Source: a virus | Virus record (IMG/VR): IMGVR_UViG_3300025759_000064 | Location: 1-64,000 of that record | DNA length: 64,000 nucleotides | Strand: one strand, 5' to 3' | Shown: one piece after another, positions 39,339-57,178 of the stretch | Numbering within the stretch: the stretch's first letter is position 1 | How the letters are laid out: each line of letters starts with the position of its first letter | The notes under the pieces: generated by a model | The model's database searches: none | Seen by the model: the letters and a program-made list of their open reading frames with translations, nothing else | Told to the model about the DNA's origin: nothing | Position numbers and translations under genes: made by a program

Positions 39339-41765
39339 TTAGACACCCCCGAATGAAACCTTGACCACTTTAACTACTCTATCGGAATAGCCGTATGTCT
39401 TAGATATTCTCTCCCAATCGCCTTTAGTGTTTAATATTGTACTAACATCCATAGATGTGATGTCTAGCATTTTCGCTAAGTAAAGAATGTCTGTAATAGA
39501 ATCTACGCTTAAATTATTAGAAGGTAAATGCTTGATAATTTCATCATCTTTTCGAGCATCTTCTATTTGTAATATTTCTACTGCTTTAATTAGTCTATCC
39601 ATGGCGGCATTATGCCCATCTTTACTTTTAGTAGGATAGTCAGAAAGAAAACGTTGGTAGGGGTCACCCATATTTTGTTGAAACTCTCGTTGTCTCTGAG
39701 AAGATACTACACCAACTGGTGGTACTTGGGTTTCTCCGGGGTAAAGCACTTGCGCTTGCTGAGGATGGTATTGTGGTCGAGGTAATCTAGACATTACATT
39801 TTGTACTGTTTCAGGAGACGCATAACCAAACTTTGCTCTCATTTGTTGGTCAGGAGTTATTTTTTTATTTGCAACTAATTGACGAAAGTGTTCTGTATTT
39901 GGGTCTACTTGCAATTGTGCTCTTCTTGCAGCATCGCTTAGTGGTGGTGGCGCACCACTAGTTGCAGCCGGAGGTGCACCGCCGGAAACTGGAACAGGTG
40001 CACCGGATATACCTTTTTCTTTACCCGGTTGTGGTTTTAATGTGGTTTCTTCGGGTTGCATAGATGCGCCGACTGGTGACATAGATGATGTCATGTCTGA
40101 ATATCTAATGTGTTCTGGCACACCTAATTGCCCCCTATCTTCGTGTGTACCTCCTTGAAGTATATTGTCTACAATTGGTTGTAATTGCTGTAATTCTTCT
40201 TGTGAAGGTATTTCTTTTCTTTCATGTCCCCCCGCTATGGTGTGGCTATGAAACAAATGGTCTAGCATTATTTTTACATTAGGCGCAGCCGCTCTTGTTT
40301 CAGGAGTATCATACAATCTAATTTTTGCCGCTTTCAAATCTTCGGGCGATAAATCATCTTCTGCATGATTGATTCCCTGAGATGCTGCAAGCACAACATT
40401 ACTCCATGCGTCTTTTGCTCTATTATGATGACCTATACCTCCTCTTACTTGATGTTGCTTATACGCTTCAATTTTTTCAGTATGGCTCATAAAATGGTCA
40501 AGCCCTTTTCCTTCTTCTGCTGTATCTCCATATCTCTGCCCATATAGATGATTCATTTTTCCAACAGTTTGACCTGCTTGTTTTATACTCCCATCTTCAT
40601 TAAACTTAGGATTTCTATTTTCACCGTAAACTGCTTGAAACGCTGGAAACTGAGATAAATAATTAGCCGCTTCTAATTGTCCTTGAGGTGTTTGTAATAA
40701 TACTTTTAGCGGCTTACCGTTTATTTCACCGGGTATATTTGCTAAATGTTTCATAGCCCCTGCGCTATCAACTATCAAGTTATTAACAACCCCTTCTCTA
40801 TTTTTCCCAGTTACTAAAGCCATGTGATGAAGAAAACTATCTACTGTTTGTTTTCTTGTTTGTCTTTTTCCACCCGGTGCTGCATCAATTTGAGGTATGT
40901 AGTAAACGTTAGGATAATGATGGGCTATTCCCCAAGATGTAATATTTTGAAAGGCTCTACTATCAGGTATTCTACTACCCCATTTTAATCTTTGACTTCC
41001 GTGTAATCTATCACCATCTAATTTACCTGAGTCTATCGAATTAGCACCAAACTGCATCCCACCTTTTCCATCAGGAACTAAATGTAATCTATGTGGTTTT
41101 ACATAAGGTTTCTTTACCCAACTATGTTTTTGCGGATTAGGATGTCCCAGTTGTGCCATAACTTCTCCAAGTTGTTTATTGAAAGGTATAGCATAAGATT
41201 CTAGATAAGTGCCACTTCTATGATTATCGCCGTGTCTATTAGTATACGTTGTAATTAAATTACCATCTTGAGTATAATTACTTCTTACTCTATGGTCTTG
41301 TTCCGTTAATGGTGCTAAATGCATTTTTCTCCAACCAACGCTATCTACATTAGGTAAATGATTGTCTTCTTTATGGTTTTGATTATGCATATCTATGGCT
41401 TTTTGAATTACATCTTTTGCTGGCGCTTTTATTCCATGTTCTAACAAAGAGTCCCCAACTGCACGTATTATTCCGTCAATACCATGCATGTGTTCTCCGC
41501 CGGATTCATCAGCGTATATTTGTTCTCCATGCATACCTGTTTTCCAATCACCGGGAAAAACGTGACCCATTCCGGGCACCCCCGTTTCTTCTTCCGAGTG
41601 AGCGCCAGTGTGAGCAAACGCTGGAATATCAGGCATATTTGGGTCTCGGTTATGAGCCTCAGGCGGTGGGAATCTTAGAGGATTCATTTTACCTGCAAAT
41701 AAACTATAATTACCATCGCCCTTTCTAAGTAGAAGAGATTTCATAATTATAGAGGATTTAATCAT
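39339..41765 (-). CDS. Large hypothetical virion-module protein (808 aa)
   Basis: An 808-residue protein, rich in His, Asn, Gly and Pro in its first two thirds. Residues about 545-700 are Pro/Gln/Ala-rich linker. The last 80 residues are helical (MDRLIKAVEILQIEDARKDD, then SITDILYLAKMLDITSMDVS). Its composition resembles the N-terminal part of the 1,804-residue protein, which suggests a common type of inner virion protein, but I find no shared motif. It begins with ATG overlapping the previous stop. Confidence 0.6.
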   Translation of the reverse strand: MIKSSIIMKSLLLRKGDGNYSLFAGKMNPLRFPPPEAHNRDPNMPDIPAFAHTGAHSEEETGVPGMGHVFPGDWKTGMHGEQIYADESGGEHMHGIDGIIRAVGDSLLEHGIKAPAKDVIQKAIDMHNQNHKEDNHLPNVDSVGWRKMHLAPLTEQDHRVRSNYTQDGNLITTYTNRHGDNHRSGTYLESYAIPFNKQLGEVMAQLGHPNPQKHSWVKKPYVKPHRLHLVPDGKGGMQFGANSIDSGKLDGDRLHGSQRLKWGSRIPDSRAFQNITSWGIAHHYPNVYYIPQIDAAPGGKRQTRKQTVDSFLHHMALVTGKNREGVVNNLIVDSAGAMKHLANIPGEINGKPLKVLLQTPQGQLEAANYLSQFPAFQAVYGENRNPKFNEDGSIKQAGQTVGKMNHLYGQRYGDTAEEGKGLDHFMSHTEKIEAYKQHQVRGGIGHHNRAKDAWSNVVLAASQGINHAEDDLSPEDLKAAKIRLYDTPETRAAAPNVKIMLDHLFHSHTIAGGHERKEIPSQEELQQLQPIVDNILQGGTHEDRGQLGVPEHIRYSDMTSSMSPVGASMQPEETTLKPQPGKEKGISGAPVPVSGGAPPAATSGAPPPLSDAARRAQLQVDPNTEHFRQLVANKKITPDQQMRAKFGYASPETVQNVMSRLPRPQYHPQQAQVLYPGETQVPPVGVVSSQRQREFQQNMGDPYQRFLSDYPTKSKDGHNAAMDRLIKAVEILQIEDARKDDEIIKHLPSNNLSVDSITDILYLAKMLDITSMDVSTILNTKGDWERISKTYGYSDRVVKVVKVSFGGV

Positions 41766-43642
41766 GGAGTTCTACCGCCTCGACTTGTTAAGTGGTCTAA
41801 AGGGTTGATTCCAAAAGTACGAGGGTCATTAGTTGCATCTTCCGTTGCACCTTCCGGCCTAGTAGTTTCTTTAGTGGGCGCATTATTATGCGCTGGTAAA
41901 TTACTAGCAGAACCTACGTTTGAATCACCTTTACCTTTTTTCTTGGTTTCTTTTCTTTTCATCGCTCTTCGAGCGTCGTTAACGAGTTGGCGAAGTTCGG
42001 CCATGTCATAGTATGATAGTCCCCGCTTTTGTAATTCGCTACCTTCTCCAACTTCACTAGTCATCACAGGTGCACCTTGTATAGCAGAACTAGGTAATCT
42101 AGGTCTGTAAGTTGGACTCTGACCGGACATACCCTGAACACCAACGCCCATTCTTGGTTGCGACATTACAGGTGGACTAGGTATACTAGGCGATGGTAAT
42201 GTAGCCCTGCGCGGTGAAGATGGGGGCATTAGTGGTGGTGGTCTAATAGACCTAAGTGCAGGTCTTCTCATTTGTTGCGCTTGTCCGGGTAGTAAACTTT
42301 GCAATGTACCACCGCCAGTCAAACCTGCTTTGTAAGAACGTGCACCGAATCTTGACGGTGTAGATGAAACGGTTCGTATGTTACCTAAACGCTTTCGTGC
42401 CTCAGATTGACCGAGGTATTGTCTGTATCTTTGTACATCTTTAGACATAGGTTGTTTAGTTTTTACACCCCTGTGAGACATTTCGACAGCAAGATGCGCT
42501 CTACTTAATCCAGTTTTCTTCCCACCAGCAATACCACGCATTCTAGCCTTGGCTCTTCTAGATGTAGCACTGCCGGGTGTCATTCCGCCCGGTGGTCTCT
42601 TGAACTCACCAGTTGAAGGTCGCCATTTCTTCTGCCTTTCTTTATGTGCTTTTCTTGCTTTTGCCCCTTTCTTTCTTTTCGGCTTTTTACCTACAAAGCC
42701 CTGTCTCTCGCTTTTGAGTAATTGAAATGCTATTTCTATGGGATTACCTTTCAAATCACCCATCATTGACTGGTCAAAAGACGGTTGTGAGTTTTTATGT
42801 TTCAACGCTTTCAGAGTAGCCATGTACATACTCATATTAATCACTGCTAAATCTTCGTGATTCATGTCGTGATAATTAGTTTGATTTCTCATATTTTGTA
42901 AAAGGTTATTAGCAGGGTCTGACAATTGCCTTGGAGCACCTCGCGGAGAACGACTCATCACCATGTAATCATGTAATAGTTTCAAATCACTTTCAGTTTC
43001 ACGCAATTGAGGCTCAAATGCCGCAACACCTTCATTGCTTCTTGTCAACTCATTTACAGCATCGTCATGGTCTTGTACCATTGGATGATTTACATTCATG
43101 TGTAAGAGTGGATATCTGTTTTCATCAAATGAGTTACCAAACATACTCATCTCATTTATATCACCATCTAAATATGACTGTAAATGTTCATCTTTGTATG
43201 CTTTTAATAATTGGAATGCTATTTCCATAGGTTCTCCCATGGCAAAGTTCTGCCCTCCGGCAAAACCCGGCCCTCTAGCCTGATTTGCTAAACTTGTAAG
43301 TGCGCCGTAATTACCCGGAGTACCAGTCATCAAAGATGGCTCTAACTCATTATCAAACTTAGTAGGTTGTAAATCTTCATCTTCATCTTCAACGGCAGGT
43401 AAGTCAGCAGTTGTAATAGAAAGATGTTTTAATCGCTTCATTTCATTTGCTCTATCTTTACGTTCTTGTTTTTTACGGTCAATACGAGCATCACGATGTT
43501 CTGTATCTTCTCCGCCGTATGCACCTTCTTCTTCGTGATTTGCGCGGAACATGTGAGAAGATTCACTTCTCGGTCCATACATTCGCGTATCGCTACCCGT
43601 ACTTGTCATACCTGATTTTAGAATACGCACAGGTTTACTCAT
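41762..43642 (-). CDS. Basic multi-linker protein with two internal helix tags
   Basis: The ATG at 43640-43642 follows GCGGGGGTTCAAC and is preferred over one five codons earlier; 626 residues. It has two internal copies of the helix tag common in this genome: GEPMEIAFQLLKAYKDE (near 135) and GNPIEIAFQLLKSER (near 300). After the second copy comes a very basic stretch (KKPKRKKGAKARKAHKERQK) and a long Pro/Arg/Ser-rich disordered region (about 330-540), as in DNA-condensing or internal virion proteins. The last 90 residues include a helix (MAELRQLVNDARRAMKRKE). Tag copies separated by linkers suggest a precursor cut by the prohead protease; this is inference. Confidence 0.6.
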   Translation of the reverse strand: MSKPVRILKSGMTSTGSDTRMYGPRSESSHMFRANHEEEGAYGGEDTEHRDARIDRKKQERKDRANEMKRLKHLSITTADLPAVEDEDEDLQPTKFDNELEPSLMTGTPGNYGALTSLANQARGPGFAGGQNFAMGEPMEIAFQLLKAYKDEHLQSYLDGDINEMSMFGNSFDENRYPLLHMNVNHPMVQDHDDAVNELTRSNEGVAAFEPQLRETESDLKLLHDYMVMSRSPRGAPRQLSDPANNLLQNMRNQTNYHDMNHEDLAVINMSMYMATLKALKHKNSQPSFDQSMMGDLKGNPIEIAFQLLKSERQGFVGKKPKRKKGAKARKAHKERQKKWRPSTGEFKRPPGGMTPGSATSRRAKARMRGIAGGKKTGLSRAHLAVEMSHRGVKTKQPMSKDVQRYRQYLGQSEARKRLGNIRTVSSTPSRFGARSYKAGLTGGGTLQSLLPGQAQQMRRPALRSIRPPPLMPPSSPRRATLPSPSIPSPPVMSQPRMGVGVQGMSGQSPTYRPRLPSSAIQGAPVMTSEVGEGSELQKRGLSYYDMAELRQLVNDARRAMKRKETKKKGKGDSNVGSASNLPAHNNAPTKETTRPEGATEDATNDPRTFGINPLDHLTSRGGRTP

Positions 43643-44039
43643 GTTGAACCCCCGCAAAATTAAATGACGTTAACATAACAAGTTTTCCGATATTACGATA
43701 AAACAAAGGAACGGTAGATGGGGTAGTAAACTTTGTACCCATTTCTTCACAGTGTTCTAAATAATTATAGCAACTATGACGTATTTGTTCTCTTAACGGT
43801 AAAACAATTTCAGGTTCATCAGTATCATCTAATTGTTTCACACATTCTATAATATGCATTAAACTATCTTCATTAACTAGGACATTGGCTTCTTTGAATG
43901 CATGGTATCTAAAACGTTCTGTTACCTTGACACAATAATCAAAGAACAAAGGATATTGTGATTTTTCCATATTTTCACCCGATAAGAATGAAAGATAGCC
44001 CGGATGCTGTGTTTGCATTAAATCAACCACAGGTATCAC
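43635..44039 (-). CDS. Hypothetical helical protein
   Basis: A 134-residue, mostly helical protein (DYCVKVTERFRYHAFKEANV; LPLREQIRHSCYNYLEHCEE) with no metal motif. It overlaps the upstream zinc-HTH gene by four bases and the downstream tag protein by eight, so all three are translationally coupled. Being next to the candidate small terminase it may act in packaging, but this is only positional. Confidence 0.55.
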   Translation of the reverse strand: MIPVVDLMQTQHPGYLSFLSGENMEKSQYPLFFDYCVKVTERFRYHAFKEANVLVNEDSLMHIIECVKQLDDTDEPEIVLPLREQIRHSCYNYLEHCEEMGTKFTTPSTVPLFYRNIGKLVMLTSFNFAGVQHE

Positions 44040-44719
44040 AGCACTTCCTCCATCTCTGCTTGTAATTTACTTTTAATTCTCTTCCAACTATCAGGACTTT
44101 CTTTTGCAAGTTCAACTTTTAGAATATTGATAGTTTGATTAACTTGTGTACCATCTGTTTGTGTACCCCATTTATCTTGAAAGCCAGTTAAATCTTTTAT
44201 TGATTCTCTTACTTCTTTATGTAAAGTAACTGCATTTCTTACAAAGCCTTCTTCATGCACACTACCTTCTTCCATCAATTCAGACAACTTGTTGTTTAAT
44301 TTTTCAACATTGCTTCTTAAAACAGTTATTTCATTTCCAACCGTAATTGCGACCTCAGTTGCTGCTGACCTTTGAACCAACGGCTGAAAGTGATGTTTCA
44401 TGTGATGATACACAGTAGTCTCCTTAATACCTAGTTCTTCTGCAATTAATTCAGATTGAGTACCATCGGAAAAGAATCGATTTTCATATTCTGCTCTATT
44501 CTCACTTGAACAAATTACGCAAGAAGGGTTTGCGGCCATATGGTATTGACCCATGTGATTACGGTAATGTCGGTCAGCAGTATTAGCCCTCCAACCCATA
44601 TCTTTATCCAACTGTTCACAGGATATTTCGCCACTTTTGATGGCCTCCTCAAGCACACTTCTGTCGTCACTTTGACAGAACGCGCATGAACGTTTCATAA
44701 CTGGCTCTCGCTCAACCAT
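44036..44719 (-). CDS. Tandem zinc-HTH protein, candidate small terminase subunit
   Basis: A 227-residue protein. The N-terminal half has two copies of the same module: CxxC (12/15), then a helix-turn-helix-like stretch, then His residues (51, 55); and again CxxC (67/70), EELGIKETTVYHHMKHHF with His at 105-110. The second half is a long coiled coil (EITVLRSNVEKLNNKLSEL) and a C-terminal helix. DNA-binding HTH plus coiled-coil oligomerisation is the plan of small terminases, and it lies in the packaging module. It could instead be a transcription regulator. A second possible ATG is at 44698. Confidence 0.6.
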   Translation of the reverse strand: MVEREPVMKRSCAFCQSDDRSVLEEAIKSGEISCEQLDKDMGWRANTADRHYRNHMGQYHMAANPSCVICSSENRAEYENRFFSDGTQSELIAEELGIKETTVYHHMKHHFQPLVQRSAATEVAITVGNEITVLRSNVEKLNNKLSELMEEGSVHEEGFVRNAVTLHKEVRESIKDLTGFQDKWGTQTDGTQVNQTINILKVELAKESPDSWKRIKSKLQAEMEEVL

Positions 44720-44755
44720 GTGTGACCGGAATACTATGTGGTTAATCAGGGTTGC

Positions 44756-45016
44756 TTAGATAAACCGCGTTATTCTCTGATATATAGAGGTCAAGAGTAT
44801 AAAGGAAAAAAATACTCCCACCATATACATTGACATTTCTGATTGGCTAATATCAGCATTCTTGAATATTAAAATCCCCATGAACACAAGTATAGCACTA
44901 ATGAGTTGTACCATTACCATATCTACTATAACTTCTCTTTTTGGAGCAAGCATGTGCATTGACATATCTGCTATTTGTCTAGGTACTGGTACACCGAAAT
45001 TATTACTACCCATCAT
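44756..45016 (-). CDS. Two-helix membrane protein
   Basis: An 86-residue protein with two predicted membrane segments (VQLISAILVFMGILIF and MYMVGVFFSFILLTSIY) joined by a short polar loop (KNADISQSEMS), and a basic C-terminus (YQRITRFI). The N-terminal 30 residues are cytoplasm-like and polar. It is the downstream end of a run containing a small GTPase and other membrane proteins. A holin-like role fits the topology but there is no specific signature. Confidence 0.6.
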   Translation of the reverse strand: MMGSNNFGVPVPRQIADMSMHMLAPKREVIVDMVMVQLISAILVFMGILIFKNADISQSEMSMYMVGVFFSFILLTSIYQRITRFI

Positions 45017-45660
45017 TATACTCTACCTCCTGTGAGGAAATTACGGAAGAAAGTACCACTACCTTGCGCTACGTTATTTATCAATCCGGGGTCTGCTAAT
45101 GCATTTGTTAATTGACTTTGTAGCATACTTTGTTGAGCATTTTGCAACGTTTGTTGTCTTTGATTATCTGCTTGTGCTATGGTTTGATTTACCATATTAG
45201 TCATAGAGTTCATTTGTGACATTACGTTTTCAGAACTCATAGTCTGTAACTCTGTTGGTAAACTAGCCACATCTAATTTGAATATTCCATTCTCTTCATC
45301 AAAAGTGTAATTAGCATTTTTTAACACATTTAGTAAAGAAAAAGTGTTTATCTGACTAATAACATCTAACAGCATAGGAAATAATTGTGATTGAAGAAAT
45401 CTCTCCACAGGGTAAGAAGTGTTTAACATCGTTAACAAAATCTCTGTATCACTAGGTGGTACAATGGCTTGTTGATTGTAAGGGTCTTGACCAGTAGCAC
45501 CCGCCCACGCTGCGCTTAGAGCACTCGGTTGCTGAGGTTGTTGATACCATTGTTGCGGTGGAGCGGTATATCCACTACCGTAATTTGTGTTAGGCGCTCC
45601 AGTTTGACTTAGATTAAGTGCGCTAGAAGCGGGTTGTTGATTATTCCAATTCATTGTCAT
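45016..45660 (-). CDS. Gln/Asn-rich hypothetical protein of membrane cluster
   Basis: A 214-residue protein. Residues 1-75 are Gln/Pro/Tyr/Asn-rich and disordered. Residues 78-135 are folded-looking (TEILLTMLNTSYPVERFLQS, DVISQINTFSLLNVL). Residues 140-190 are Gln/Asn-rich helix. It overlaps the membrane protein start by one base and the next upstream gene by four. Family not recognised; it probably partners the proteins around it. Confidence 0.5.
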   Translation of the reverse strand: MTMNWNNQQPASSALNLSQTGAPNTNYGSGYTAPPQQWYQQPQQPSALSAAWAGATGQDPYNQQAIVPPSDTEILLTMLNTSYPVERFLQSQLFPMLLDVISQINTFSLLNVLKNANYTFDEENGIFKLDVASLPTELQTMSSENVMSQMNSMTNMVNQTIAQADNQRQQTLQNAQQSMLQSQLTNALADPGLINNVAQGSGTFFRNFLTGGRV

Positions 45661-46625
45661 TGCATACCCTCCAACACTGCTTCCGGTATCAACGGAGGGG
45701 GGTTTATGGTTTGAGCCTGTTGGTTTAGAATATCTTGGAATGCAATGTTAGGCGTAGTCATATCTCTAAGTTCTTTTTGAAACATTCTCATATCAAAAGT
45801 AATTGTCGTAATATCATTATCGCCGCTAACTGGATTAACGTAATGTTGCATTGTAATACCTTTACTTTTTCTTACATCTGCTGAAATCTCAGCAAAGAAA
45901 GGTTCGTATTTAGTAATCATAGGATGTATTGGACCTGTCTGCCCAGCAGTAATAGTAGAAACTGGTACAGTAACTATACTGACTCCTCTTTTTATCTTAT
46001 CACGAAATCGACTAGGTTTCATTTCATCTTCAACATCTTGCTGTTCTTCCCATTTACAAAGTAAATGATACAAATGTAAATGTTCAGGACAATAAGTTGC
46101 TCTCATTTTTCTACCACTTGTTACTCCTTCTCTTGCTATGAATGCTTCTGCCTCACCTGTAACTGGATTTTGCCAGTACATATCCCATAGAGTTTTACCA
46201 GTATCTTCATCACTTATTCTAGAATATAAATTATCATGTTGTATTAATTCTTTTACATTACATCCATCAACACAACAGACAGCAGTATCTTTGTTATACA
46301 TATATTTGCTGTGACGGAATAATCTACGAGGGTCAAATATGGAGCGTTTTGTTGGGCTTAATAATTTGTAAGCCTGACGAATATCTTGTTTTCTTGCTTT
46401 GTAAGGATTAGCGTGCCTCGATGGATAGAAGTTAACCTTAGGCACTTCTATGTTCTTTTCCATAGACATTCTTTGCATCTGTTGTTGTGCTGCTGCTTGT
46501 TCCATTAGAGCAGCATGACTAAAATTAGGATTACCTTGTTGTGATAAAGCCATTAATGTAGCATCATTCACTTGACCTAGATTCGGTTGCTGCTGAGAAT
46601 AAAACGGATTCATGTTCATTACCAT
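45657..46625 (-). CDS. Hypothetical Cys-containing protein (322 aa)
   Basis: The ATG at 46623-46625 follows GGAGTGAT within the end of the AbrB-like gene and is preferred to one 21 codons earlier. The product has 322 residues: a Gln/Met-rich start (NPFYSQQQPNLGQ), a basic region (SRHANPYKARKQDIRQAYKL), then a Cys/His-bearing fold at about 110-205 (CCVDGCNVKELIQHD with a later YCPEHLHLYHLLCKW) that may bind zinc, then strands (GVSIVTVPVSTIT; NDITTITFDMRMFQKEL). Not recognised. It sits between the AbrB-like gene and the membrane cluster. Confidence 0.55.
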   Translation of the reverse strand: MVMNMNPFYSQQQPNLGQVNDATLMALSQQGNPNFSHAALMEQAAAQQQMQRMSMEKNIEVPKVNFYPSRHANPYKARKQDIRQAYKLLSPTKRSIFDPRRLFRHSKYMYNKDTAVCCVDGCNVKELIQHDNLYSRISDEDTGKTLWDMYWQNPVTGEAEAFIAREGVTSGRKMRATYCPEHLHLYHLLCKWEEQQDVEDEMKPSRFRDKIKRGVSIVTVPVSTITAGQTGPIHPMITKYEPFFAEISADVRKSKGITMQHYVNPVSGDNDITTITFDMRMFQKELRDMTTPNIAFQDILNQQAQTINPPPLIPEAVLEGMQ

Positions 46626-46630
46626 GCGTA

Positions 46631-46810: not shown

Positions 46811-46852
46811 GTCTCTCGCACACCCTACTCATCTAAAAGGTCACTGTTGAGG

Positions 46853-47862: not shown

Positions 47863-47873
47863 ACTGCTTTACC

Positions 47874-48670: not shown

Positions 48671-49136
48671 GCCATATACCTTCAGGTGCATATTTTTGCC
48701 ACATAGATTGAGCCTCAGGTGATTGGTCATTATCAGGGGTTAATGTTTGGTCATAATTAGATAACACTTCTGCCATAGTATCATAGAGATTTTTAGCATA
48801 TCCTCTTTGTCGATAAGGTTGTTCTGTTCTCGCATTCATAACACTGGTAGTGTTTCTATCGCCTAAAGTTCTAGCATTCATTCTATTCCTATCACTAATA
48901 TTCCCAGCGATATTTAATCTAGGTCGTGTTCTTTTCAAAGGTTTACCAAAATAAGTTCCACCGTTTTCTCGCCTTCTAACATCTATGTCTGTTTGTAATA
49001 TTTCATTAGTAACAGGGTCTTGAAAATCAGCAGCCCACGTATCGTGTTCGCCTGATGGTTCAGATGTTACTCTTCTTAATGAATCGGGAATCATAGGCGC
49101 TTTGAGCACAATCCACGCTTGGTCGAAGGCGGTCAT
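48660..49136 (-). CDS. Tagged GNAT-like acetyltransferase
   Basis: A 158-residue protein starting with the shared helix tag (MTAFDQAWIVLKAP). Residues about 105-150 resemble the acetyl-CoA binding part of GNAT enzymes (TEQPYRQRGYAKNLYDTMAE, a Q/RxxGxA-like loop and helix, then AQSMWQKYAPEG). The ribosome binding site GGAGTGAT precedes the ATG. Two other tagged genes (56277-56648 and 56645-57178) have the same plan. The substrate is unknown; the tag may direct it to the virion or another shared partner. Confidence 0.6.
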   Translation of the reverse strand: MTAFDQAWIVLKAPMIPDSLRRVTSEPSGEHDTWAADFQDPVTNEILQTDIDVRRRENGGTYFGKPLKRTRPRLNIAGNISDRNRMNARTLGDRNTTSVMNARTEQPYRQRGYAKNLYDTMAEVLSNYDQTLTPDNDQSPEAQSMWQKYAPEGIWPVR

Positions 49137-49351
49137 TGATTATCACTCCACCAAGTATCTACTTCAGGGTCATTCATCAAATCTTCATTAAAATAATAGA
49201 AATGCTTCTTGTAACAATCATCACATAACATTCTTGGAAAATCAACGCCATCATCAAGTGTATGATTCTGACTGTTTAACAAAGCACCACAATGTGAACA
49301 AGCGCCCACTTCTAATTTTAGCAAAGCCCACGCTTGGTCGAAGGGGTTCAT
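49133..49351 (-). CDS. Tagged zinc-ribbon protein
   Basis: A start at 49349-49351 (TGATGA overlap with the previous stop, GGTGGA upstream) gives MNPFDQAWALLKLEVG, the helix tag, then a four-Cys ribbon (CSHCGALLNSQNH, then CDDCYKKHF); 72 residues in all. A frame four codons longer exists but lacks a better ribosome binding site. The ribbon is of the CxxC-x21-CxxC type. Role unknown; it belongs to the tagged family. Confidence 0.6.
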   Translation of the reverse strand: MNPFDQAWALLKLEVGACSHCGALLNSQNHTLDDGVDFPRMLCDDCYKKHFYYFNEDLMNDPEVDTWWSDNQ

Positions 49352-49710: not shown

Positions 49711-50015
49711 CGTAACACACCCACCATCTTAACAATTGTTGGCTTTCCGCCCACACCTTGCTTTTTTGCACGTTTTCTTTTTGTTGCTGCTTGCTTCTGA
49801 CCTGATGACATAGAACCTGATGTTTTTGGCGTTTTGCTTGAAACCTTGATTGATGGTCTGCATTTAGGATAACCTTTACTAGATTTATTTGCTTTACTTC
49901 TACCACACGGAGGATGCTTACCATCTTTAGTACGCGACACATCTACCCATTTTTCTTTGAACCAGCGATTTAGGTTCTTAACTACAAGAGTATCATGGCA
50001 AGTACATCGTGTCAT
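49707..50015 (-). CDS. Small basic Cys protein (DUF5872-like)
   Basis: A 102-residue basic protein with the signature WFKEKWVDVSRTKDGKHPPC, then GRSKANKSSKGYPKCRPS, matching a small conserved family of marine and other tailed phages (DUF5872 as I recall it). The Cys residues may bind metal. The C-terminal half is Lys/Ser-rich and probably disordered. It overlaps both neighbours by a few bases. Function unknown. Confidence 0.65.
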   Translation of the reverse strand: MTRCTCHDTLVVKNLNRWFKEKWVDVSRTKDGKHPPCGRSKANKSSKGYPKCRPSIKVSSKTPKTSGSMSSGQKQAATKRKRAKKQGVGGKPTIVKMVGVLR

Positions 50016-50173
50016 ACTACTCCTACCATTTTCTTAATACTCTTTTGTTTATCCATCAATGCGTAACAAGGACATTTAGGAGCGGATGCTGAACATTGAT
50101 TACCCTCAATCATACAAACGCAAGGCGTTTTACTAGTAGCCCCGCAACAACATTTGTCTTTCTTAAGTTTCAT
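50012..50173 (-). CDS. Small Cys-rich protein (53 aa)
   Basis: ATG at 50171-50173 and TGA at 50012-50014 overlap the flanking genes in ATGA fashion. The 53 residues hold eight Cys (KCCCGATSKTPCVCM, then QCSASAPKCPCYAL), enough for two metal sites. It is part of the run of small basic or Cys-rich proteins. Family not recognised. Confidence 0.6.
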   Translation of the reverse strand: MKLKKDKCCCGATSKTPCVCMIEGNQCSASAPKCPCYALMDKQKSIKKMVGVV

Positions 50174-50340
50174 TTTTTCTTTTTCCCCTTAAACTTACCA
50201 CGACAATATTGAACAGCCCACCCGTTTGCATACGCAGATGGGTAAACATCGAACTTTTTCTTTGCGGCTGCTTTTCCAGCAGGGCATAGTTTTTTCCAAA
50301 CCGCATCCATACCAACACAATGACCGCATTCGCAACTCAT
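50170..50340 (-). CDS. Small conserved protein, KFDVYPSAYANGWA type (56 aa)
   Basis: ATG at 50338-50340, TGA at 50170-50172, 56 residues. CECGHC near the start, then KKKFDVYPSAYANGWAVQYC, a motif I know from tiny basic proteins of many marine phages (KFKVYPSAYAN form), then a Lys-rich tail. It is coupled by ATGA overlaps to both neighbours. Function unknown, but the same small genes recur together in other marine tailed viruses. Confidence 0.65.
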   Translation of the reverse strand: MSCECGHCVGMDAVWKKLCPAGKAAAKKKFDVYPSAYANGWAVQYCRGKFKGKKKK

Positions 50341-51902
50341 TTTTTCACCTTAACCCTGCGAAGTGTACCTTTATTTTTGAAATGCCTTGCTCTATTTGAG
50401 TGTGCACTCTCTAAAGTTAATTTTCCACCTTGCGTGTGGCTGACATCTTTACCACCTTTTCCGTATATGCCCCGCTTCCTACGCTCTGTGTTTAATTGCT
50501 CACGATACTTTACACGCTTAGGTGTCTTTTGATATTGCTTGTCATACTCTAATTTGTGAGCAAATGCTGCTGGCGACTTGCGCTCTTTGAGCAACTGATA
50601 GGCTATGTCCATTGGTTCGCTGGCTAGTTTCCGATTTTTCCACTCAAAACGGGTAGTATATTCAGGATGGTCTTCGGGAAGCAACGACATTGGAGGACGT
50701 TCTTTACTTGGCTCAAGCCGTCTATATTCATTTTCAAAATGTCGTCTGTTCTCCCTTTTTTGTTTTTCATAATACCTATTGAACTCCTTTATTGAATCCC
50801 AATAGTCTTGTTCATTATAATCTTTTATATTTCCATATCCGTATAATCTTTCAGAGCCTTCATCTCGCTCGTATGGTTGGATATTGCTGAAATAATCATA
50901 TAACATATTTTCATCCATATCTTCGTCTTCCTGAATATTTTTAAGCAACTGGAGGGCTATGTCCATTGGACTACCTTTAGTCAATTCGTAGATTTCATCT
51001 TTAGTTTTACCATAAAATAAATTATGTAACTCATCTGCATCCATATCTTCTATCTTTTTTCGTTTAATCGGCTTACCCCAAGGTAAAGGTTTGTCGCTCC
51101 ATCTACTAATTCGGCCACTTGGCCTTCTGTCTGTATTACTAATATTACGACCTAAATTGGGAGTGCCCATCTCTAGTGTTTCGTCTTTATAATGTCGTCG
51201 CAATGGTACTTCAACTAAACTTTCACGTGGAATATTTTCATCATGCTCAATAAACGCTTCTGCTAAATCTTCTTTTGCTTCGTCACTATCTCTTCTGTGC
51301 ACTTTTCCGTATTTATCAAGATTTCCACGTACATAAACTAACTTATCGGGGGCATTATGGGTGTATAAATTATTAATATCTCCCATTGTATTATTTGAAA
51401 CCCAAGTTCCAGCCTTTGCATTTTTTAATCCAGCGAAAAGTTTTCGCGCGCGGGGATGATACTTACCATCTCTATGCGCACCTGCCATATAATACGGTAC
51501 ATTTGATATAGGGTCTTTCCTCCATCTCGAATTAGGGTCTTCCCAAACAGGGTCATTATCATGGGGTATTTCAGGAATCAGTGGTGGAAGTCTTGGGTCA
51601 CCTTCTTCATAGTTTATATTAGAGCCATCTTGCGGTACAGGTTCTCCCGCAGGTCTATGCGCCCCTTGTACACGAACAGCCCTAACGGGGTCCCATCCTT
51701 CCCAACCAGTTGTGTAATCTAATCTAGGGTCATGCATTGGCAACTTTGTTTGATAATTATTTTCAATTGTGTACTCCGGGTGATTTGGAAACAATTGCGC
51801 TCTTCTCGCTTGTTCCATCATATCCATATATTCTTTCGATTCTTTAATAGCCTCTTCATCTTCTAACGATTTTAGAAAAGCCCAAGATTTGTTAAACACC
51901 AT
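50337..51902 (-). CDS. Multi-tag acidic/basic protein, possible internal virion precursor
   Basis: ATG at 51900-51902 gives MVFNKSWAFLKSLEDEE, the helix tag, and is preferred to a frame 30 codons longer that overlaps the gene before. The 521-residue product has two further internal tags: GSPMDIALQLLKNIQ (about 315) and SEPMDIAYQLLKERKSP (about 455). Between them are polar, Asp/Glu/Asn/Pro-rich stretches; the C-terminal 70 residues are strongly basic (GIYGKGGKDVSHTQGGKLTL). A tag-linker-tag layout suggests processing into pieces by the prohead protease, by analogy to internal head proteins; not proven. Confidence 0.6.
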   Translation of the reverse strand: MVFNKSWAFLKSLEDEEAIKESKEYMDMMEQARRAQLFPNHPEYTIENNYQTKLPMHDPRLDYTTGWEGWDPVRAVRVQGAHRPAGEPVPQDGSNINYEEGDPRLPPLIPEIPHDNDPVWEDPNSRWRKDPISNVPYYMAGAHRDGKYHPRARKLFAGLKNAKAGTWVSNNTMGDINNLYTHNAPDKLVYVRGNLDKYGKVHRRDSDEAKEDLAEAFIEHDENIPRESLVEVPLRRHYKDETLEMGTPNLGRNISNTDRRPSGRISRWSDKPLPWGKPIKRKKIEDMDADELHNLFYGKTKDEIYELTKGSPMDIALQLLKNIQEDEDMDENMLYDYFSNIQPYERDEGSERLYGYGNIKDYNEQDYWDSIKEFNRYYEKQKRENRRHFENEYRRLEPSKERPPMSLLPEDHPEYTTRFEWKNRKLASEPMDIAYQLLKERKSPAAFAHKLEYDKQYQKTPKRVKYREQLNTERRKRGIYGKGGKDVSHTQGGKLTLESAHSNRARHFKNKGTLRRVKVKK

Positions 51903-51903
51903 T

Positions 51904-52113
51904 CTAAATCCATCCTGATGTCCTCTTTGATTGTTGTGTCTTAGGTTGTGACGTAGGTTGAGGCGGATTGGCTTGCATATTTCTTTTAGCATCTGCGTTT
52001 TTAGCCATTATCATGTCTTGTAGAGACATAAAGCGACCTGAGCCGGGAGGATATTCGTGCATATCAATGGGGTCTGCTTTGAGAAATTGCCAAGCCTCAT
52101 TGAATGCGGTCAA
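51904..52113 (-). CDS. Small tagged protein (TTG start)
   Basis: GGTGA lies five bases before a TTG at 52111-52113, and starting there gives MTAFNEAWQFLK, the helix tag in its usual first position. A GTG nine bases upstream overlaps the previous stop and has no such ribosome binding site, so TTG is chosen; 69 residues. The rest is polar with PGSGRFMSLQDMIMAKNADA and a Gln/Pro tail. Family otherwise unknown. Confidence 0.6.
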   Translation of the reverse strand: MTAFNEAWQFLKADPIDMHEYPPGSGRFMSLQDMIMAKNADAKRNMQANPPQPTSQPKTQQSKRTSGWI

Positions 52114-52118
52114 CCCAA

Positions 52119-53264
52119 TCACCTATTTGCAAAAACATCTTTTGGCATACGAGGTCTTGGTTTGTTAGGGTCTGCAAATCGTGGGTCACCCGGTCTAGGC
52201 GCACCACGTGGTTTTCGCATTTCAGGCATACCTTCCGCCATTATTGCAGCCCGTTCCGCTTCATTCATTTCCGCTTGGCGTGCATCTTCATCACCAAACT
52301 CAGGTTTACCGTATGGCGGTCCTAAATCTTCCCCATCATATTCAGGAAAACCTTCATCATCGTATCTACTTGGACCGGGCATACTATCTCTAGTGTAATT
52401 ATTCGCCCCTTTTCTATGTAAATCTTCGTCTATAAAACGTTGAGGAGACATATCAGGAAGATTTCGTGCTCTGACGTGTTCGGGTAAATTAGATATTCTA
52501 AAGTTTTGCTTCAACATTTCAAATGCTTTTTGCATAGGTTTACCCCTGCCGGGGATTCGATGTAGCATTTTTGAATTGATAAGTTCTTGTAATTTTGCCT
52601 CACTTGCTGCTCTTTTACCAAGTTTAGTGTTTTTTAACGCTTCTTGCAAAAATGGGGCATAATCATCCTTAAAATCCCGCACCTCTTTATTAGTTGGGTG
52701 TGTTTGTTGGTATGAGTAAGATTGTGGTGCTTTGGTTCTTCTTTGGTTATCTTTGTTAGCATAAGCATTCATTTGGTCCATAGGGTCATCTACACTTCCA
52801 TATGGCATACTATCGGCGTAGTACTCAGGGTGCATATCTAACGTTGGGGTTTTACCATCACGGTAATCTAATGCACTTTCATTTGCACGAAGATTCAGAT
52901 TTGGCAAGTCTGCATTTTCGTCATTATAACTACCTGATGTCAAATGGGGGTTTTCTTTCATGCGCCTCTGCATCATCCCATATATCGCAGGGTGTATAGT
53001 ACCCGCACCCTCTTGCCTCTCTCCGACATCAGGGCCTTCTCCTTGGTAAGTGATTTCTGCTAGATTGGCTCTGTCATAAGCAGGTTCAAACATTTGATGC
53101 TCAGGTAGCGCTTTCAAGGTCTGCCACGATTTCTTCATAGGCATAGAGCCGTATTTCTTCATGTTCGGTGTAGCGGCATCGGTGGGCTTAGTTTTCATTT
53201 TTGGCCCAATGCTGATAATTACAGCAACGCCCTTTTTCTTTTTCTTGTCTTTCATTTTAATCAC
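52119..53264 (-). CDS. Tagged hypothetical protein with second internal tag
   Basis: A 381-residue protein. The first 30 residues are Lys-rich with short hydrophobic strands (KKKKKGVAVIISIGPKMKTK). A tag-like segment follows (MPMKKSWQTLKALP, about 42-55), and a second copy lies near 243-255 (GKPMQKAFEMLKQN). The remainder is Asp/Asn/Pro/Arg-rich. It ends in overlap with the next tagged gene. Same general plan as the 521- and 626-residue tagged proteins. Confidence 0.55.
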   Translation of the reverse strand: MIKMKDKKKKKGVAVIISIGPKMKTKPTDAATPNMKKYGSMPMKKSWQTLKALPEHQMFEPAYDRANLAEITYQGEGPDVGERQEGAGTIHPAIYGMMQRRMKENPHLTSGSYNDENADLPNLNLRANESALDYRDGKTPTLDMHPEYYADSMPYGSVDDPMDQMNAYANKDNQRRTKAPQSYSYQQTHPTNKEVRDFKDDYAPFLQEALKNTKLGKRAASEAKLQELINSKMLHRIPGRGKPMQKAFEMLKQNFRISNLPEHVRARNLPDMSPQRFIDEDLHRKGANNYTRDSMPGPSRYDDEGFPEYDGEDLGPPYGKPEFGDEDARQAEMNEAERAAIMAEGMPEMRKPRGAPRPGDPRFADPNKPRPRMPKDVFANR

Positions 53265-53266
53265 TT

Positions 53267-53614
53267 TTAATTTTGATATTGTGGATTATTTTGCTGGTAC
53301 GGTGGCCTTTCATGCTCAAATGGGTTTCTTTTAGCCTCAAATGGTTTGGGTTGATGAGGTTGGTAAGGGTTGTAAGGTAGGTTGTTATCATTTGGATTAC
53401 CTTGTCCGTATGGCGCATTTTGCTTCATTCTCTCCATGTACTCGTCCAAAGTTCGCTGTTTACCTTCTTTTGATGGAGAGGGGGCGTAAGGGTTAGGTTG
53501 AGGATTATTTCGGTAAGGTTGGTTAGATGGATTGGAAGGCATTGCTCGGTGGTATAAATAATTCGGGTTAGGTGCGCTTTTCAAAAACGTCCACGCTGTT
53601 TCAAATGCTGTCAT
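53267..53614 (-). CDS. Tagged Asn/Pro-rich protein
   Basis: A 115-residue protein: helix tag (MTAFETAWTFLKSAPNPN), then a Pro/Asn/Gln/Tyr-rich disordered region to the end (NDNNLPYNPYQPHQPKPFEA). AAGGAGA precedes the ATG. Apart from the tag it has no recognisable domain, which makes the tag the likely functional part. Confidence 0.55.
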   Translation of the reverse strand: MTAFETAWTFLKSAPNPNYLYHRAMPSNPSNQPYRNNPQPNPYAPSPSKEGKQRTLDEYMERMKQNAPYGQGNPNDNNLPYNPYQPHQPKPFEAKRNPFEHERPPYQQNNPQYQN

Positions 53615-53874
53615 TCTCCTTGACCCCCTCTAAATGACTCAAACCATTCGGGATGGTTCTGTCTGTAAAAATCAATTATTTTAGCATCTTCTTCGTGGTC
53701 ATCTATTTTTTCACGTAATTTTGAAGCCTTTTGCTTCTTTTTACGGCTATCAGACCTTGTTTTACCAGTTTGATTCAGTGCCTCTTCCATGTAACTTGGC
53801 ATATCGTGCTGCATAGCAACTTGAGAGGAGGGGGACATTTTTAGCACATTTATTGCTGCATCTATTGGATTCAT
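53611..53874 (-). CDS. Small tagged charged protein
   Basis: ATG at 53872-53874 follows GGTGA and gives MNPIDAAINVLKMSPSS, a diverged tag; a GTG three codons upstream is the alternative. Residues 40-87 are strongly charged (KKKQKASKLREKIDDHEEDA) and likely helical. 87 residues. It is the first minus-strand gene left of the plus-strand island and shares the intergenic region with it. Confidence 0.55.
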   Translation of the reverse strand: MNPIDAAINVLKMSPSSQVAMQHDMPSYMEEALNQTGKTRSDSRKKKQKASKLREKIDDHEEDAKIIDFYRQNHPEWFESFRGGQGE

Positions 53875-54055
53875 TTTATTCACCTTTTACGCATCGGCGT
53901 GGTAACTACGTGCACCGCTAGTAATGCGATATGTCTAATATGTTACGCTCTATCCTGAGGGCGTGGTGGCTTCCATTCCGCAGGGTCAAGTTGTTGTAAG
54001 TTCTTCTTCTTTCCACATTCATTACCTCAAAAAAAATAAGCAGACTGGTGGGAAT
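53875..54055. other. Divergent intergenic region
   Basis: About 180 bases between diverging genes. It contains GCGATATGTCTAATATGTT (near 53927-53945), which resembles the TCTAATGT block of the elements at 48.6 and 59.0 kb and offers TATA-like sequence on both strands (CTAATATG / CATATTAG). No RNA gene or ORF of note. Confidence 0.4.
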
Positions 54056-54679
54056 ATGGAAGTCACCGCACCTGTTTTGGTTACTAAAGGCGTAGGAGAA
54101 ACAGCGCTAAACTTGGGCGCTCTTGCACTTGCACCATTTACTGGTGGTATGTCGGCAGTTGCCTTAGGAGCAGCAAGAGGCGCACAGGCATTGAGAGCGG
54201 TAAAAGCAGCAAAAGGTGCAAAAACTGCCGTAGGAACTACTCAAGCCGCTAAAACTACTGCTGGTAAAGTTGCAGTTAAAGACCCAATGGCTATGGCAAA
54301 CGCAAGACATGCAGAGCAAATAGCAGAGGCTGGTGAAAGCGGAGGTAGATTAGGTCAATTGCGAAGTAGAGCAGTAACACCAACGGCGGCAGAAGAATTA
54401 GAGGCTGCAACTTCAAATCAAGCAAGAATGAAAGATATAGCAAGCACTACTGATGCAGCAGCAGAAGCGGAAAAAAATCTTGCCGAATTACATGAGCAAC
54501 AAAAAACTGCAACAGATACAGCAGGGGCTGCTGCTGTTGTGGGAGTACAAGGCACAAACGCTGCCGCACAACAAAAACAGGCACAACAAAAAGCCGAAAT
54601 GGAAAGAATAGAAGGATTAGCGGAAGATGCTAGGTCAAAAGCCAGCACCGGAACTGGTGGGAAGGTAGCGGTGGCATGA
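54056..54679 (+). CDS. Ala-rich protein with hydrophobic segment, plus-strand island
   Basis: A 207-residue protein from ATG 54056-54058 (GGTGGG upstream), inside an otherwise minus-strand arm. Residues 15-50 are Gly/Ala/Leu hydrophobic (LNLGALALAPFTGGMSAVAL), like a membrane-active segment, followed by Lys/Ala-rich helix (LRAVKAAKGAKTAV). Residues 110-200 are Ala/Gln/Glu-rich helix, possibly coiled. The stop overlaps the next gene's start. Codons look richer in Ala and GC than its neighbours. Not recognised; membrane penetration or lysis is possible. Confidence 0.6.
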   Translation: MEVTAPVLVTKGVGETALNLGALALAPFTGGMSAVALGAARGAQALRAVKAAKGAKTAVGTTQAAKTTAGKVAVKDPMAMANARHAEQIAEAGESGGRLGQLRSRAVTPTAAEELEAATSNQARMKDIASTTDAAAEAEKNLAELHEQQKTATDTAGAAAVVGVQGTNAAAQQKQAQQKAEMERIEGLAEDARSKASTGTGGKVAVA

Positions 54680-54789
54680 TTGCCATGGCTCTAAAAGGCT
54701 ACATTAAACTGCAATTAGCCCAAATGATACAGCATTTGATTGTCGGCTTAGGACTTGTAGTTGTAGTTACTGTTATACTTTTATCTTAG
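54676..54789 (+). CDS. Tiny single-span membrane protein (37 aa)
   Basis: ATG 54676-54678 overlaps the preceding TGA; TAG is at 54787-54789. The 37 residues are a basic/amphipathic start (ALKGYIKLQLAQMIQHL) and one hydrophobic span (IVGLGLVVVVTVILL). The last 17 bases overlap, tail to tail, the end of the HMG-CoA-lyase-like gene on the other strand. With the previous gene it may form a two-part membrane system such as a holin pair. Confidence 0.6.
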   Translation: MIAMALKGYIKLQLAQMIQHLIVGLGLVVVVTVILLS

Positions 54790-55621
54790 TATTTACAAAC
54801 TTGACTAGCGGTTCTAAGTCTTTAAGCGTAACACCACAATCAAGATTCTCTCTATCAGCCCAGTGTACTAACTGTTCTGTGGCTAAATTGCCCCCTGAGC
54901 CGGGTACAAACGGGCAACCGCCCATTCCTCCAATGCTAGAATCGAACTGTGTGATGCCGCAATCGAAGCCAGCAGACAGATTATCGTACATTCTGCCCTC
55001 TCTTACACCGTGATGTAGGTGCAATGCGATATTTGCATCTATCTTTCTGTCAGTTAAACGCATTACTTTGCGTATCATCGATGGGTTAGCATTACCTATG
55101 GTGTCAGACAAAACTATTGTATCGCCTAAGGTATTTGCCCATTCCATGGTTTTTAGCATGTCTTTTGGCGGTATTTCGCCCATAATCGGGCATCCAAAAG
55201 ATGTAGAAAGGTAAACTCTGACGTTTTTGGTCGGTATTCTGTCTAATGCGCCACTGTATTCAGCAAAAATTGTGTTTAGGTTTTTACCTAAGTTATTGAC
55301 ATTGAAGTAGTTTGACGGTGAGAAAAAAATATTATATTTTTCTACACCAACAGACTTTGCCCTTTCAACACCCACACGGTTTGGCACTAACATACCCAAG
55401 TTGTGCGTAGAGGCTAAATCTTGCACTTTGAGGAATACTACTTCGCTATCAGCCATATTTGGAACTCTGTCAGGATTGACCATTGAGCCAATTTCAATAT
55501 TTTTGATACCCGTATTTGCAATTTTACGTATCAAAGTCACCTTATCGTGCGTAGATGTGATTGTATCTGCGCTCTGCAACCCATCGCGTGGTCCTACTTC
55601 GTAGATTGAAAAGTCGCTCAT
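54773..55621 (-). CDS. HMG-CoA lyase-family enzyme (DRE-TIM aldolase)
   Basis: From ATG 55619-55621 (TAATG overlap, GGGAG upstream) the product is 282 residues; a frame seven codons longer overlaps the previous gene. The start YEVGPRDGLQ carries the Arg12-Asp13 pair of the DRE-TIM family. SMVNPDRVPNMAD matches the second hallmark of HMG-CoA lyase; His201 and His203 (HLHHG) would bind the divalent metal; GGMGGCPFVPGSGGNLATE contains Cys236 and Asn244 of the active-site loop. All key residues are present, so the enzyme is probably active. The known family reaction splits HMG-CoA into acetoacetate and acetyl-CoA; related members cleave other acids. A metabolic gene in a virion arm is unusual. 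Confidence 0.85.
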   Translation of the reverse strand: MSDFSIYEVGPRDGLQSADTITSTHDKVTLIRKIANTGIKNIEIGSMVNPDRVPNMADSEVVFLKVQDLASTHNLGMLVPNRVGVERAKSVGVEKYNIFFSPSNYFNVNNLGKNLNTIFAEYSGALDRIPTKNVRVYLSTSFGCPIMGEIPPKDMLKTMEWANTLGDTIVLSDTIGNANPSMIRKVMRLTDRKIDANIALHLHHGVREGRMYDNLSAGFDCGITQFDSSIGGMGGCPFVPGSGGNLATEQLVHWADRENLDCGVTLKDLEPLVKFVNTKIKV

Positions 55622-56280
55622 TATTCTGTCTCCCAATCCCACATATCGGGTCTTTCAGTTTCACCAACACCCCCACCGTAAGCCAAATCTTTAATGTCTC
55701 TCGGCACATTGCCCCAAGTAGATTCATCATGCCAATTCATTGGCTGCCCTACGTTTTTACCCTGTCTCATCATAACTAATCGGTGCGGGTCAATCGCCTC
55801 ATGGATAAGCCCTTCAGGAAATCCTTCAGGACTTTGTTTTGCGTTCCTCCACTGCGCATCGAGATTTTTCGCGCCCTCAGGTGTCATACGAATCCCAACC
55901 ATTGAATGTCCCATTCCTTTTCCACTAGGCGTAGCACCAGCGTATGCGGGTGTAACATTACGAAAATCGGGTTTAGTCACCCAAAATCCTTTACCCCCAC
56001 CACGTGTAGTATCAAACTTTTTGTCATTTTTACCAGCCATTACATCTTCCCATTGCGAATTATCTTCTCCATAACCACGGTTTGCGTTTTGCGGCAAAGG
56101 CTGCAAACCTCGATTATCAATATCTTGCATATATTCGCTCGGTACAACACGCATCATCGACATCGGCCCAGCCCGACTAGGAAAATCTGCATGGTATTGA
56201 CCCAAGGTAGTTTGGTCAGGGTGCAATTCAGGATACAAAGGTGACTTTAGAACAGCCCATGCTTGGTCAAAGGGGTTCAT
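55621..56280 (-). CDS. Tagged protein, possible ADP-ribosyltransferase-like fold
   Basis: ATG 56278-56280 follows GGGAGGGT and starts MNPFDQAWAVLKSP, the tag; 219 residues. After a linker the sequence MRVVPSEYMQDIDNRGLQP, then GKGFWVTKPDFRNV and LIHEAIDPHRLVMM, has the strand/helix order and wording of small ART-like folds (KptA/DarT type). I do not see a clear catalytic triad, so this is a tentative fold call. It overlaps the lyase gene by one base. Confidence 0.5.
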   Translation of the reverse strand: MNPFDQAWAVLKSPLYPELHPDQTTLGQYHADFPSRAGPMSMMRVVPSEYMQDIDNRGLQPLPQNANRGYGEDNSQWEDVMAGKNDKKFDTTRGGGKGFWVTKPDFRNVTPAYAGATPSGKGMGHSMVGIRMTPEGAKNLDAQWRNAKQSPEGFPEGLIHEAIDPHRLVMMRQGKNVGQPMNWHDESTWGNVPRDIKDLAYGGGVGETERPDMWDWETE

Positions 56281-56648
56281 TGTTGACCCTCCCGATTCGC
56301 CCAAAAACCCTCAGCATCCTCGCTCTGCATGTGATTAGTGTTCTGCACAGTAAGTCCAGTAATTTTCTCAGCGTGGTTGTACATGTCCGTGGCTATACCC
56401 CCTCTCCGAAAACTCGGATGCGTGTAACTAGCCAAAGGAATCAAGTTACCGTCAGCCACTGAAAACTTTGCATAACCATATTTTATGGGCTTTTGGTCGT
56501 ATTTATCCAAACCCTGTATGGCCGCAACCTGTAAATTACCATGTTTATCGTATTCATGCTGCAACGAGAAATCTTCGGGGTCTCCGTAGTAAGGGAAATC
56601 CGGTTTAGGCATTTTGAGTACAGCCCACGCTCGGTCGAAGGCAGTCAT
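56277..56648 (-). CDS. Tagged GNAT-like acetyltransferase
   Basis: A 123-residue protein: tag (MTAFDRAWAVLKMPKPD), strands (NLQVAAIQGLDKYDQKPIKY; ADGNLIPLASYTHP), then SFRRGGIATDMYNHAEKITG, the RxxGxA-like acetyl-CoA loop of GNAT enzymes, and a C-terminal QSEDAEGFWANR like the final GNAT strand/helix. It is shorter than usual GNATs (about 150), so the N-terminal strands are reduced. Coupled by ATGA overlaps on both sides. Confidence 0.65.
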   Translation of the reverse strand: MTAFDRAWAVLKMPKPDFPYYGDPEDFSLQHEYDKHGNLQVAAIQGLDKYDQKPIKYGYAKFSVADGNLIPLASYTHPSFRRGGIATDMYNHAEKITGLTVQNTNHMQSEDAEGFWANREGQQ

Positions 56649-57178
56649 TCATGCACCCCATCATACGGCCAACGTAGTCTTATCCCTCTATAATCATCTT
56701 GAAACTTAGTGTGAGCAGAACGCCTCTCATCTCCCTCATACGGCAATTCCATGTGTTTTGCCCAAAATGGGGCTGAGGATGCGCTTAACTGACTCGGAAA
56801 TGTCGTTAGCCTAGCATTTTTCTTCTTCGCCATCTCATTCGCCAAATTATAAACACCCGTCATCAAACCTCTTCTTCTGTAACCCTCTCTAGTTTTTGCA
56901 TGAGAAGTTTTCCATTCAGGGCCATAATGCTCGCTAATATGATTAACAGCAAGCGGTTTTCCATCATTATCCATAATTCTTGTATTTAGCCCATACATAT
57001 CATATTCCGACACCATTGGATAGATTTTGTTTGTTTGAGGGTCTTGAAATTGTGCTTCCATCCCACCGTCTTGTACGTCAGCCTCCTTAATGGGGTCCCA
57101 CCCTTCTATTTCTTTAATTGAGCCGGGGATTATCGGCATCTTGAGTATAGCCCACGCAATGTCGAATGCGTTTACCAT
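56645..57178 (-). CDS. Tagged GNAT-like acetyltransferase, first late gene
   Basis: ATG 57176-57178 after GTGTGAGGCGC starts MVNAFDIAWAILKMP (the tag); a GTG three codons earlier is possible. 177 residues. GNAT features: YRRRGLMTGVYNLANEMAKK (acetyl-CoA loop and helix) and QLSASSAPFWAKH near the end. It is the first gene of the leftward arm, next to the repeat-rich strand switch. On the minus strand CGATATAGAG lies about 25 bases before the start and could be its TATA box, implying a short or absent leader. Confidence 0.65.
   Translation of the reverse strand: MVNAFDIAWAILKMPIIPGSIKEIEGWDPIKEADVQDGGMEAQFQDPQTNKIYPMVSEYDMYGLNTRIMDNDGKPLAVNHISEHYGPEWKTSHAKTREGYRRRGLMTGVYNLANEMAKKKNARLTTFPSQLSASSAPFWAKHMELPYEGDERRSAHTKFQDDYRGIRLRWPYDGVHE

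Follow-up and report, generated by a model that had tools for sequence, protein, structure and literature searches.

Unrelated enzymes are sent to the protein shells of bacterial microcompartments and encapsulins by short peptides or amphipathic helices, termed encapsulation peptides and encapsulin cargo peptides, respectively. Those peptides serve cellular compartments, not virions, and to our knowledge no polyprotein form with internal tags exists among them. In bacteriophage T4, about 10 N-terminal residues, the capsid targeting sequence (CTS), suffice to load diverse internal proteins into the prohead; residues 4 and 7 of the CTS act in targeting and residues 8 and 10 in processing, and Alt, an ADP-ribosyltransferase, is likewise packaged and trimmed as an internal protein (PMC9026906, PMC3012670). 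The head proteases of the giant phages phiKZ and SPN3US remove N-terminal propeptides at S/A-x-E or A-x-E (PMC10052503, PMC9026906). MuF toxins of the SPP1 gp7 type join a head-associated N-terminal element to variable enzymatic parts, including ADP-ribosyltransferases (ARTs), metallopeptidases and RelA-like domains (PMC5576092).

Here we describe a ~12-residue helical tag that recurs on over 100 proteins, otherwise unrelated, of viruses infecting abundant marine archaea. The tag is like the T4 CTS (found on IPI–III and Alt, with gp21 as the protease) in being a short sequence of ~10–12 residues at the N-terminus of diverse proteins, with a key position 4 and a probable ART-like cargo. It differs from the CTS in its lineage (archaeal magroviruses with an HVTV-1-like capsid protein), in its sequence, in the far larger number of cargo families per lineage and in its internal and C-terminal copies, which form (tag-cargo)n polyproteins. 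The L/I-x-E site at which the T4 prohead protease removes the CTS is missing, and the candidate cut lies at the tag Lys or at a preceding Glu: the aligned positions contained no conserved Glu after the tag, which ends in a nearly invariant Lys. As in the giant-phage propeptides, Glu comes into play at the internal tags, which are preceded by [GS]-E; in contrast to those propeptides, most of which are long and share no common short tag, the N-terminal magrovirus tags lack Glu. The MuF element is a folded domain (PF04233) present in 1–2 copies per capsid in SPP1, unlike the 11–12-residue helix carried by many magrovirus proteins, and Pfam found no match to PF04233 (Phage_Mu_F) in 110 tagged proteins. 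No published description of the tag was found in the open-access literature searched, a search that lay outside the first magrovirus paper.

Tag copies in the window and the virus that carries them

The window comprises bases 1–64000 of a 110,919-base IMG/VR virus record (a 110.9-kb tailed virus). Its HK97-fold capsid protein has its nearest match, at 33%, in haloarchaeal HVTV-1/HCTV-5. The window also contains an HMG-CoA-lyase-like gene (54773–55642), and the remaining genome encodes a TCP-1-type chaperonin, an RFC-like clamp loader, PolB and an ERCC4 nuclease. An HVTV-like HK97 capsid protein, archaeal replication genes, HMG-CoA lyase and chaperonin are Magrovirales traits, and the last three match the genome profile of the Aoguangviridae (PMC10768690). 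We take the virus to be a magrovirus infecting Poseidoniales (Marine Group II), as judged by gene content. Between the portal and protease genes lies a 1820-residue protein (27511–32973) with a weak match to ATP-dependent DNA ligase (E 0.004), fast-evolving outside the ligase-matching part; the HVTV-1 gene at a similar place, 1313 residues long, carries a zeta toxin annotation.

The first-pass annotation had reported 14 copies of a short helix in 11 proteins. Using the pattern x-[APV]-[FMI]-[DENQK]-x-[AS]-[WFYIL]-x-x-L-K, we located 15 tags, spread over 11 ORFs and each at a minus-strand position from 42713 to 57172 (Table 1), and the tagged genes lie upstream of the terminase gene in the same direction. 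Across the whole genome (120 non-overlapping ORFs, 36,130 residues) the pattern matched 14 times compared with a mean of 0.024 in residue shuffles, the maximum in any of 1000 shuffles being 2, and outside the tagged region only a single weak match was present. The described placement, mostly N-terminal with some internal copies, also held: nine of the 15 tags are at or near N-termini (57172, 56645, 56277, 53871, 53611, 52110, 51902, 49348 and 49133) and six lie deeper, two each in the ORFs ending at 52119, 50337 and 41762, although one of the two in ORF 52119–53264 is only ~40 residues from the ORF start. An Ala-rich ORF of 238 residues on the plus strand (53963–54679) sits amid this minus-strand cluster. 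On the replication side, a plus-strand gene (L003:18154–18822, genome ~81154–81822) starts with MTIHDAWALLKEE, which resembles the tag minus one residue; no other tag-like start was found on this genome's early strand.

Table 1 Tag copies and head genes in the window
Feature	Position	Strand	Remarks
NAFDIAWAILK	57140..57172	-	N-terminal; GNAT ORF 56645-57187
TAFDRAWAVLK	56613..56645	-	N-terminal; GNAT ORF 56277-56648 (weak Pfam GNAT)
NPFDQAWAVLK	56245..56277	-	N-terminal; ART-like ORF 55621-56304
NPIDAAINVLK	53839..53871	-	N-terminal; ORF 53611-53883 (basic, disordered-looking)
TAFETAWTFLK	53579..53611	-	N-terminal; ORF 53267-53614 (Pro/Asn/Gln-rich)
MPMKKSWQTLK	53112..53144	-	near N-terminus; ORF 52119-53264
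KPMQKAFEMLK	52509..52541	-	internal; ORF 52119-53264
TAFNEAWQFLK	52078..52110	-	N-terminal; ORF 51904-52122; orthologues L021, L043, L065
MVFNKSWAFLK	51870..51902	-	N-terminal; polyprotein ORF 50337-51992 (real start probably 51902)
SPMDIALQLLK	50940..50972	-	internal, second module; ORF 50337-51992
LASE-PMDIAYQLLK	50586..50618	-	internal, directly before basic phrog_6437 domain; ORF 50337-51992
NPFDQAWALLK	49316..49348	-	N-terminal; zinc-ribbon-like ORF 49133-49363
TAFDQAWIVLK	49101..49133	-	N-terminal; GNAT-family ORF 48660-49136
AMGE-PMEIAFQLLK	43202..43234	-	internal; ORF 41762-43657
LKGN-PIEIAFQLLK	42713..42745	-	internal, before Lys/Arg-rich stretch; ORF 41762-43657
Terminase	37195-38676	-	head gene
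Portal	34232-35962	-	head gene
Head maturation protease	26086-27465	-	C-terminal scaffold-like region; candidate processing enzyme; hydrophobic-Lys sites at both protease-domain flanks
HK97-fold major capsid protein (MCP)	24881-26050	-	N-arm LLK-AD; K34 A35 D36 invariant including HVTV-1

The DNA encoding the tag had likewise been noted as similar between copies, and the repeat CCACGCTTGGTCGAAGG indeed occurs in two exact copies (49113 and 49328) and in near copies with 1 and 2 mismatches (56625 and 56257, respectively); across viruses, only the peptide is kept. Nearly every synonymous codon is used there (GCT 71, GCG 55 and GCA 46 times for Ala7; TTT 84 and TTC 88 times for Phe; all six codons for Leu), which argues that selection acts on the peptide and not on the DNA.

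Spread among viruses and exchange between cargoes

A back-translated degenerate DNA pattern for M[TN][AP]F[DEN]xAWxxLK matched 106 stretches in IMG/VR and none when the residue order was scrambled. Among the 85,000 prokaryote genomes of GTDB one stretch matched, and its membrane-protein-like start (MNAFKIAWLLFKNN...) is unlike the tag peptide; we attribute this match to chance and rejected the tag as a feature of cellular proteins. A looser pattern matched 259 times in the 50 tag-bearing records longer than 40 kb, compared with 0 matches for the reversed pattern, and the same HK97-type capsid protein (61–100% identity) was present in 47 of these 50 records; the other three may be fragments. 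Conversely, among contigs picked by their capsid protein, tags were found in 27 of the 44 longer than 36 kb and in all 10 longer than 80 kb. HVTV-1, the nearest cultured relative, showed no tag in the 47-kb half of its genome that was searched, which holds the structural genes. The tag is confined to one virus lineage, the magroviruses. It keeps to the capsid-gene strand in 237 of 242 cases. Tagged ORFs interrupt the head-tail operon in four of seven relatives, each time at the junction of the same two genes, with stop and start codons that overlap.

The N-terminal form of the tag reads M-[TNS]-[AP]-F-[DEN]-x-A-W-x-[LVI]-[LVMI]-K; its C-terminal Lys hardly varies, and L-K persists even where one residue is inserted before it. 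The 266 N-terminally tagged proteins fell into 116 body clusters, of which 79 were singletons, and when 110 representatives were aligned, only tag residues formed invariant or near-invariant columns. Thus, the tag has been swapped among unrelated cargoes. In both predicted models obtained, those of the GNAT and ART-like clusters, it forms a helix.

Pfam matched almost nothing among the 110 tagged representatives, and structure prediction was therefore applied to two large clusters. Three GNAT-like enzymes, a possible ART-like fold and a zinc ribbon had been proposed among the tagged proteins of the window. For the GNATs, the AF2 model of ORF 56645–57187 (pLDDT 79.5) returned a list of 50 PDB matches, all of them GNAT-fold acyltransferases (best E 3.5e-4), and the other two members, 56277–56648 and 48660–49136, cluster with it, which confirmed the predicted GNAT fold of this cluster. 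The ART proposal found support of a weaker kind: Foldseek and profile matches of the 55621–56304 family were mostly to ART folds (best E 0.03 and 0.0017) on a weak model (pLDDT 63), and an HGT motif is nearly invariant in the family, which probably has an ADP-ribosyltransferase fold. The zinc ribbon in ORF 49133–49363 had a weak Pfam match (E 0.02). Further tagged cargo comprised SpoT/RelA-type HD hydrolases, ParB-like proteins, zinc ribbons, DUF6321 proteins, the basic phrog_6437 domain and, as read from the sequence, HExxH proteins. The tagged SpoT/RelA-type HD hydrolases (L092:10676–11125 and L090:1640–2059) might act as injected alarmone or nucleotide hydrolases. Not every gene in the tagged region is tagged, as the HMG-CoA lyase gene lies untagged amid tagged genes. 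Three small Lys-rich Cys-containing proteins are also encoded in the window (49351–49710, 49707–50015 and 50170–50340; DUF6321, DUF5872 and KLCPAGKAAAK type); the DUF6321 and KLCP types are tagged in other magroviruses and have CxCxxC-like N-termini in the window, and DUF6321 is common to pelagiphages and cyanophages.

As a set, the ART-like, GNAT, SpoT/HD, ParB-like, HExxH, zinc-ribbon and basic proteins resemble injected effectors. No domain of proven virion location was found directly behind any tag. A virion role has not been proven elsewhere for the phrog_6437 domains behind internal tags or for the DUF6321 family, and they were ruled out as proof of virion location, being present in cyanophages and pelagiphages but unannotated there; in the same comparison, Syn5 gp50 lies near structural genes. 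The distribution and the cargo together support well a virus-specific tag that is encoded on the late strand and can be transferred among effector-like enzymes.

Internal tags and polyproteins

Internal and C-terminal copies follow the form Phi-x-[TAKMR]-[GS]-E-P-M-[DEN]-[IL]-A-[FWMY]-[QR]-L-L-K, with Glu directly before the tag in 82% of internal cases. An ORF has one to four internal tags; the extreme C-terminus carries a tag in 11 cases. In the window, ORF 50337–51992 combines an N-terminal tag with a second (50940–50972) and a third (50586–50618) that precedes a basic domain. The same cargo was found alone or as a module of a polyprotein: L019 (MSPFEQAWRLLK followed by APVYTDDNPPPM) and L036 (LHTGEPMNLAFRLLK followed by APVYTDDNPPPM) are 94.6% identical from the first residue past the tag, while their tags differ, and the GNATs L069 and L197, among others, likewise stand alone in one case and internally in the other, with homology from just after the tag. 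Because homology starts right after the tag Lys, the module border is exactly this lysine, and both tag forms hold the same place. These comparisons demonstrated a (tag-cargo)n polyprotein architecture and bear out well the earlier suggestion that internal copies reside in apparent polyprotein precursors.

Possible role of the tag and competing explanations

We consider it fairly likely, judging from sequence and in line with the first-pass annotation, that this peptide is a portable magrovirus cargo tag that loads late-made proteins into the procapsid. Among known systems the T4 CTS is the nearest working precedent, and the tag shares its size, position and logic. The ~12 residues would form an amphipathic capped helix, its docking face made up of F4, A7, W8 and L11, that would bind the capsid or scaffold protein inside the growing procapsid. 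The virion would then carry effector enzymes and DNA-binding proteins into the host together with the genome. Weighing against this reading are the missing tag in the searched half of the HVTV-1 genome and the phrog_6437 and DUF6321 families, whose virion role is unproven elsewhere. Internal tags would divide polyproteins whose modules the head maturation protease probably separates. More tentatively, and with somewhat less than even confidence, we propose that one helical code loads the capsid with a large and rapidly exchanged effector arsenal, some of it in the form of (tag-cargo)n polyproteins separated by the head protease inside the procapsid, making up a modular delivery system of an abundant group of marine archaeal viruses.

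The cut might fall after the tag Lys or after the Glu that precedes internal tags, and we slightly favour the former. Hydrophobic-Lys sites flank the protease domain and occur in the capsid arm, whose K34-A35-D36 does not vary even when HVTV-1 is included; in this group of archaeal viruses, the K-A-D of the capsid arm and the hydrophobic-Lys protease flanks are candidate sites for maturation cleavage. The HK97 cut lies at K103/S104 (PMC10275583), and T4, phiKZ and SPN3US are cut after Glu (PMC9026906, PMC10052503). A cut after Glu would place Pro right behind it, which is unusual. In the ART-like cargoes the predicted fold begins 1–2 residues past the tag, with little space for a separate downstream cut site. 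The Glu motif Phi-x-[TAKMR]-[GS]-E showed no excess away from tags (41 occurrences compared with 39 ± 6 expected by chance), and was rejected as a general polyprotein protease site on this ground.

Recruitment of the tagged proteins to a hub in the infected cell, such as a replication or assembly site, a chaperonin or a membrane, where they would act late in the producing cell instead of being packaged, appears unlikely to us. A docking helix on late-strand proteins would suit any hub, and the 11 extreme C-terminal tags would suit a docking peptide that needs no cut. However, ART, GNAT and SpoT-type hydrolase activities would presumably be more useful early in the next cell, tagged genes are found inside the head-tail operon, and the untagged HMG-CoA lyase amid tagged genes also speaks against a hub. 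The tag might instead serve mainly as a protease-processing element for docking and cleavage, with no targeting role of its own. This would fit the near-invariance of the terminal Lys with retention of L-K despite an inserted residue, the similar hydrophobic-Lys sites in the capsid arm (LLK-AD) and at both protease-domain flanks together with the HK97 precedent (PMC10275583), and the exact marking of module borders by internal tags. We nevertheless regard it as distinctly improbable, since most tags are N-terminal on single-module proteins, where an element used for cleavage only would be pointless, and the F/A/W face is conserved far beyond the needs of a cleavage site.

Short DNA repeats within a genome would aid cassette recombination, and the peptide could be the by-product of a DNA or RNA element, either such a recombination site or a translation leader; the free variation of synonymous codons makes this very improbable, and a leader at the start site is excluded by the copies that lie internally or at C-termini. 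Similarity due to chance or low complexity, or derivation of every tagged protein from a single ancestor, would at most account for paralogous bodies such as the three GNATs of the window. Both were refuted by the residue shuffles (14 matches compared with a mean of 0.024), by the scrambled control (0 matches) and by the 116 body clusters without detectable mutual similarity, and their probability is next to nil.

If the packaging reading is true, engineered capsids would gain a short, portable signal for their loading, and the capsid-targeting principle of T4 would extend to archaeal viruses, with tagged polyproteins as a new twist. In that case a single short pattern would also list the proteins that these viruses bring into Poseidoniales cells, and dozens of orphan genes would become testable candidates for effectors or anti-defence proteins.
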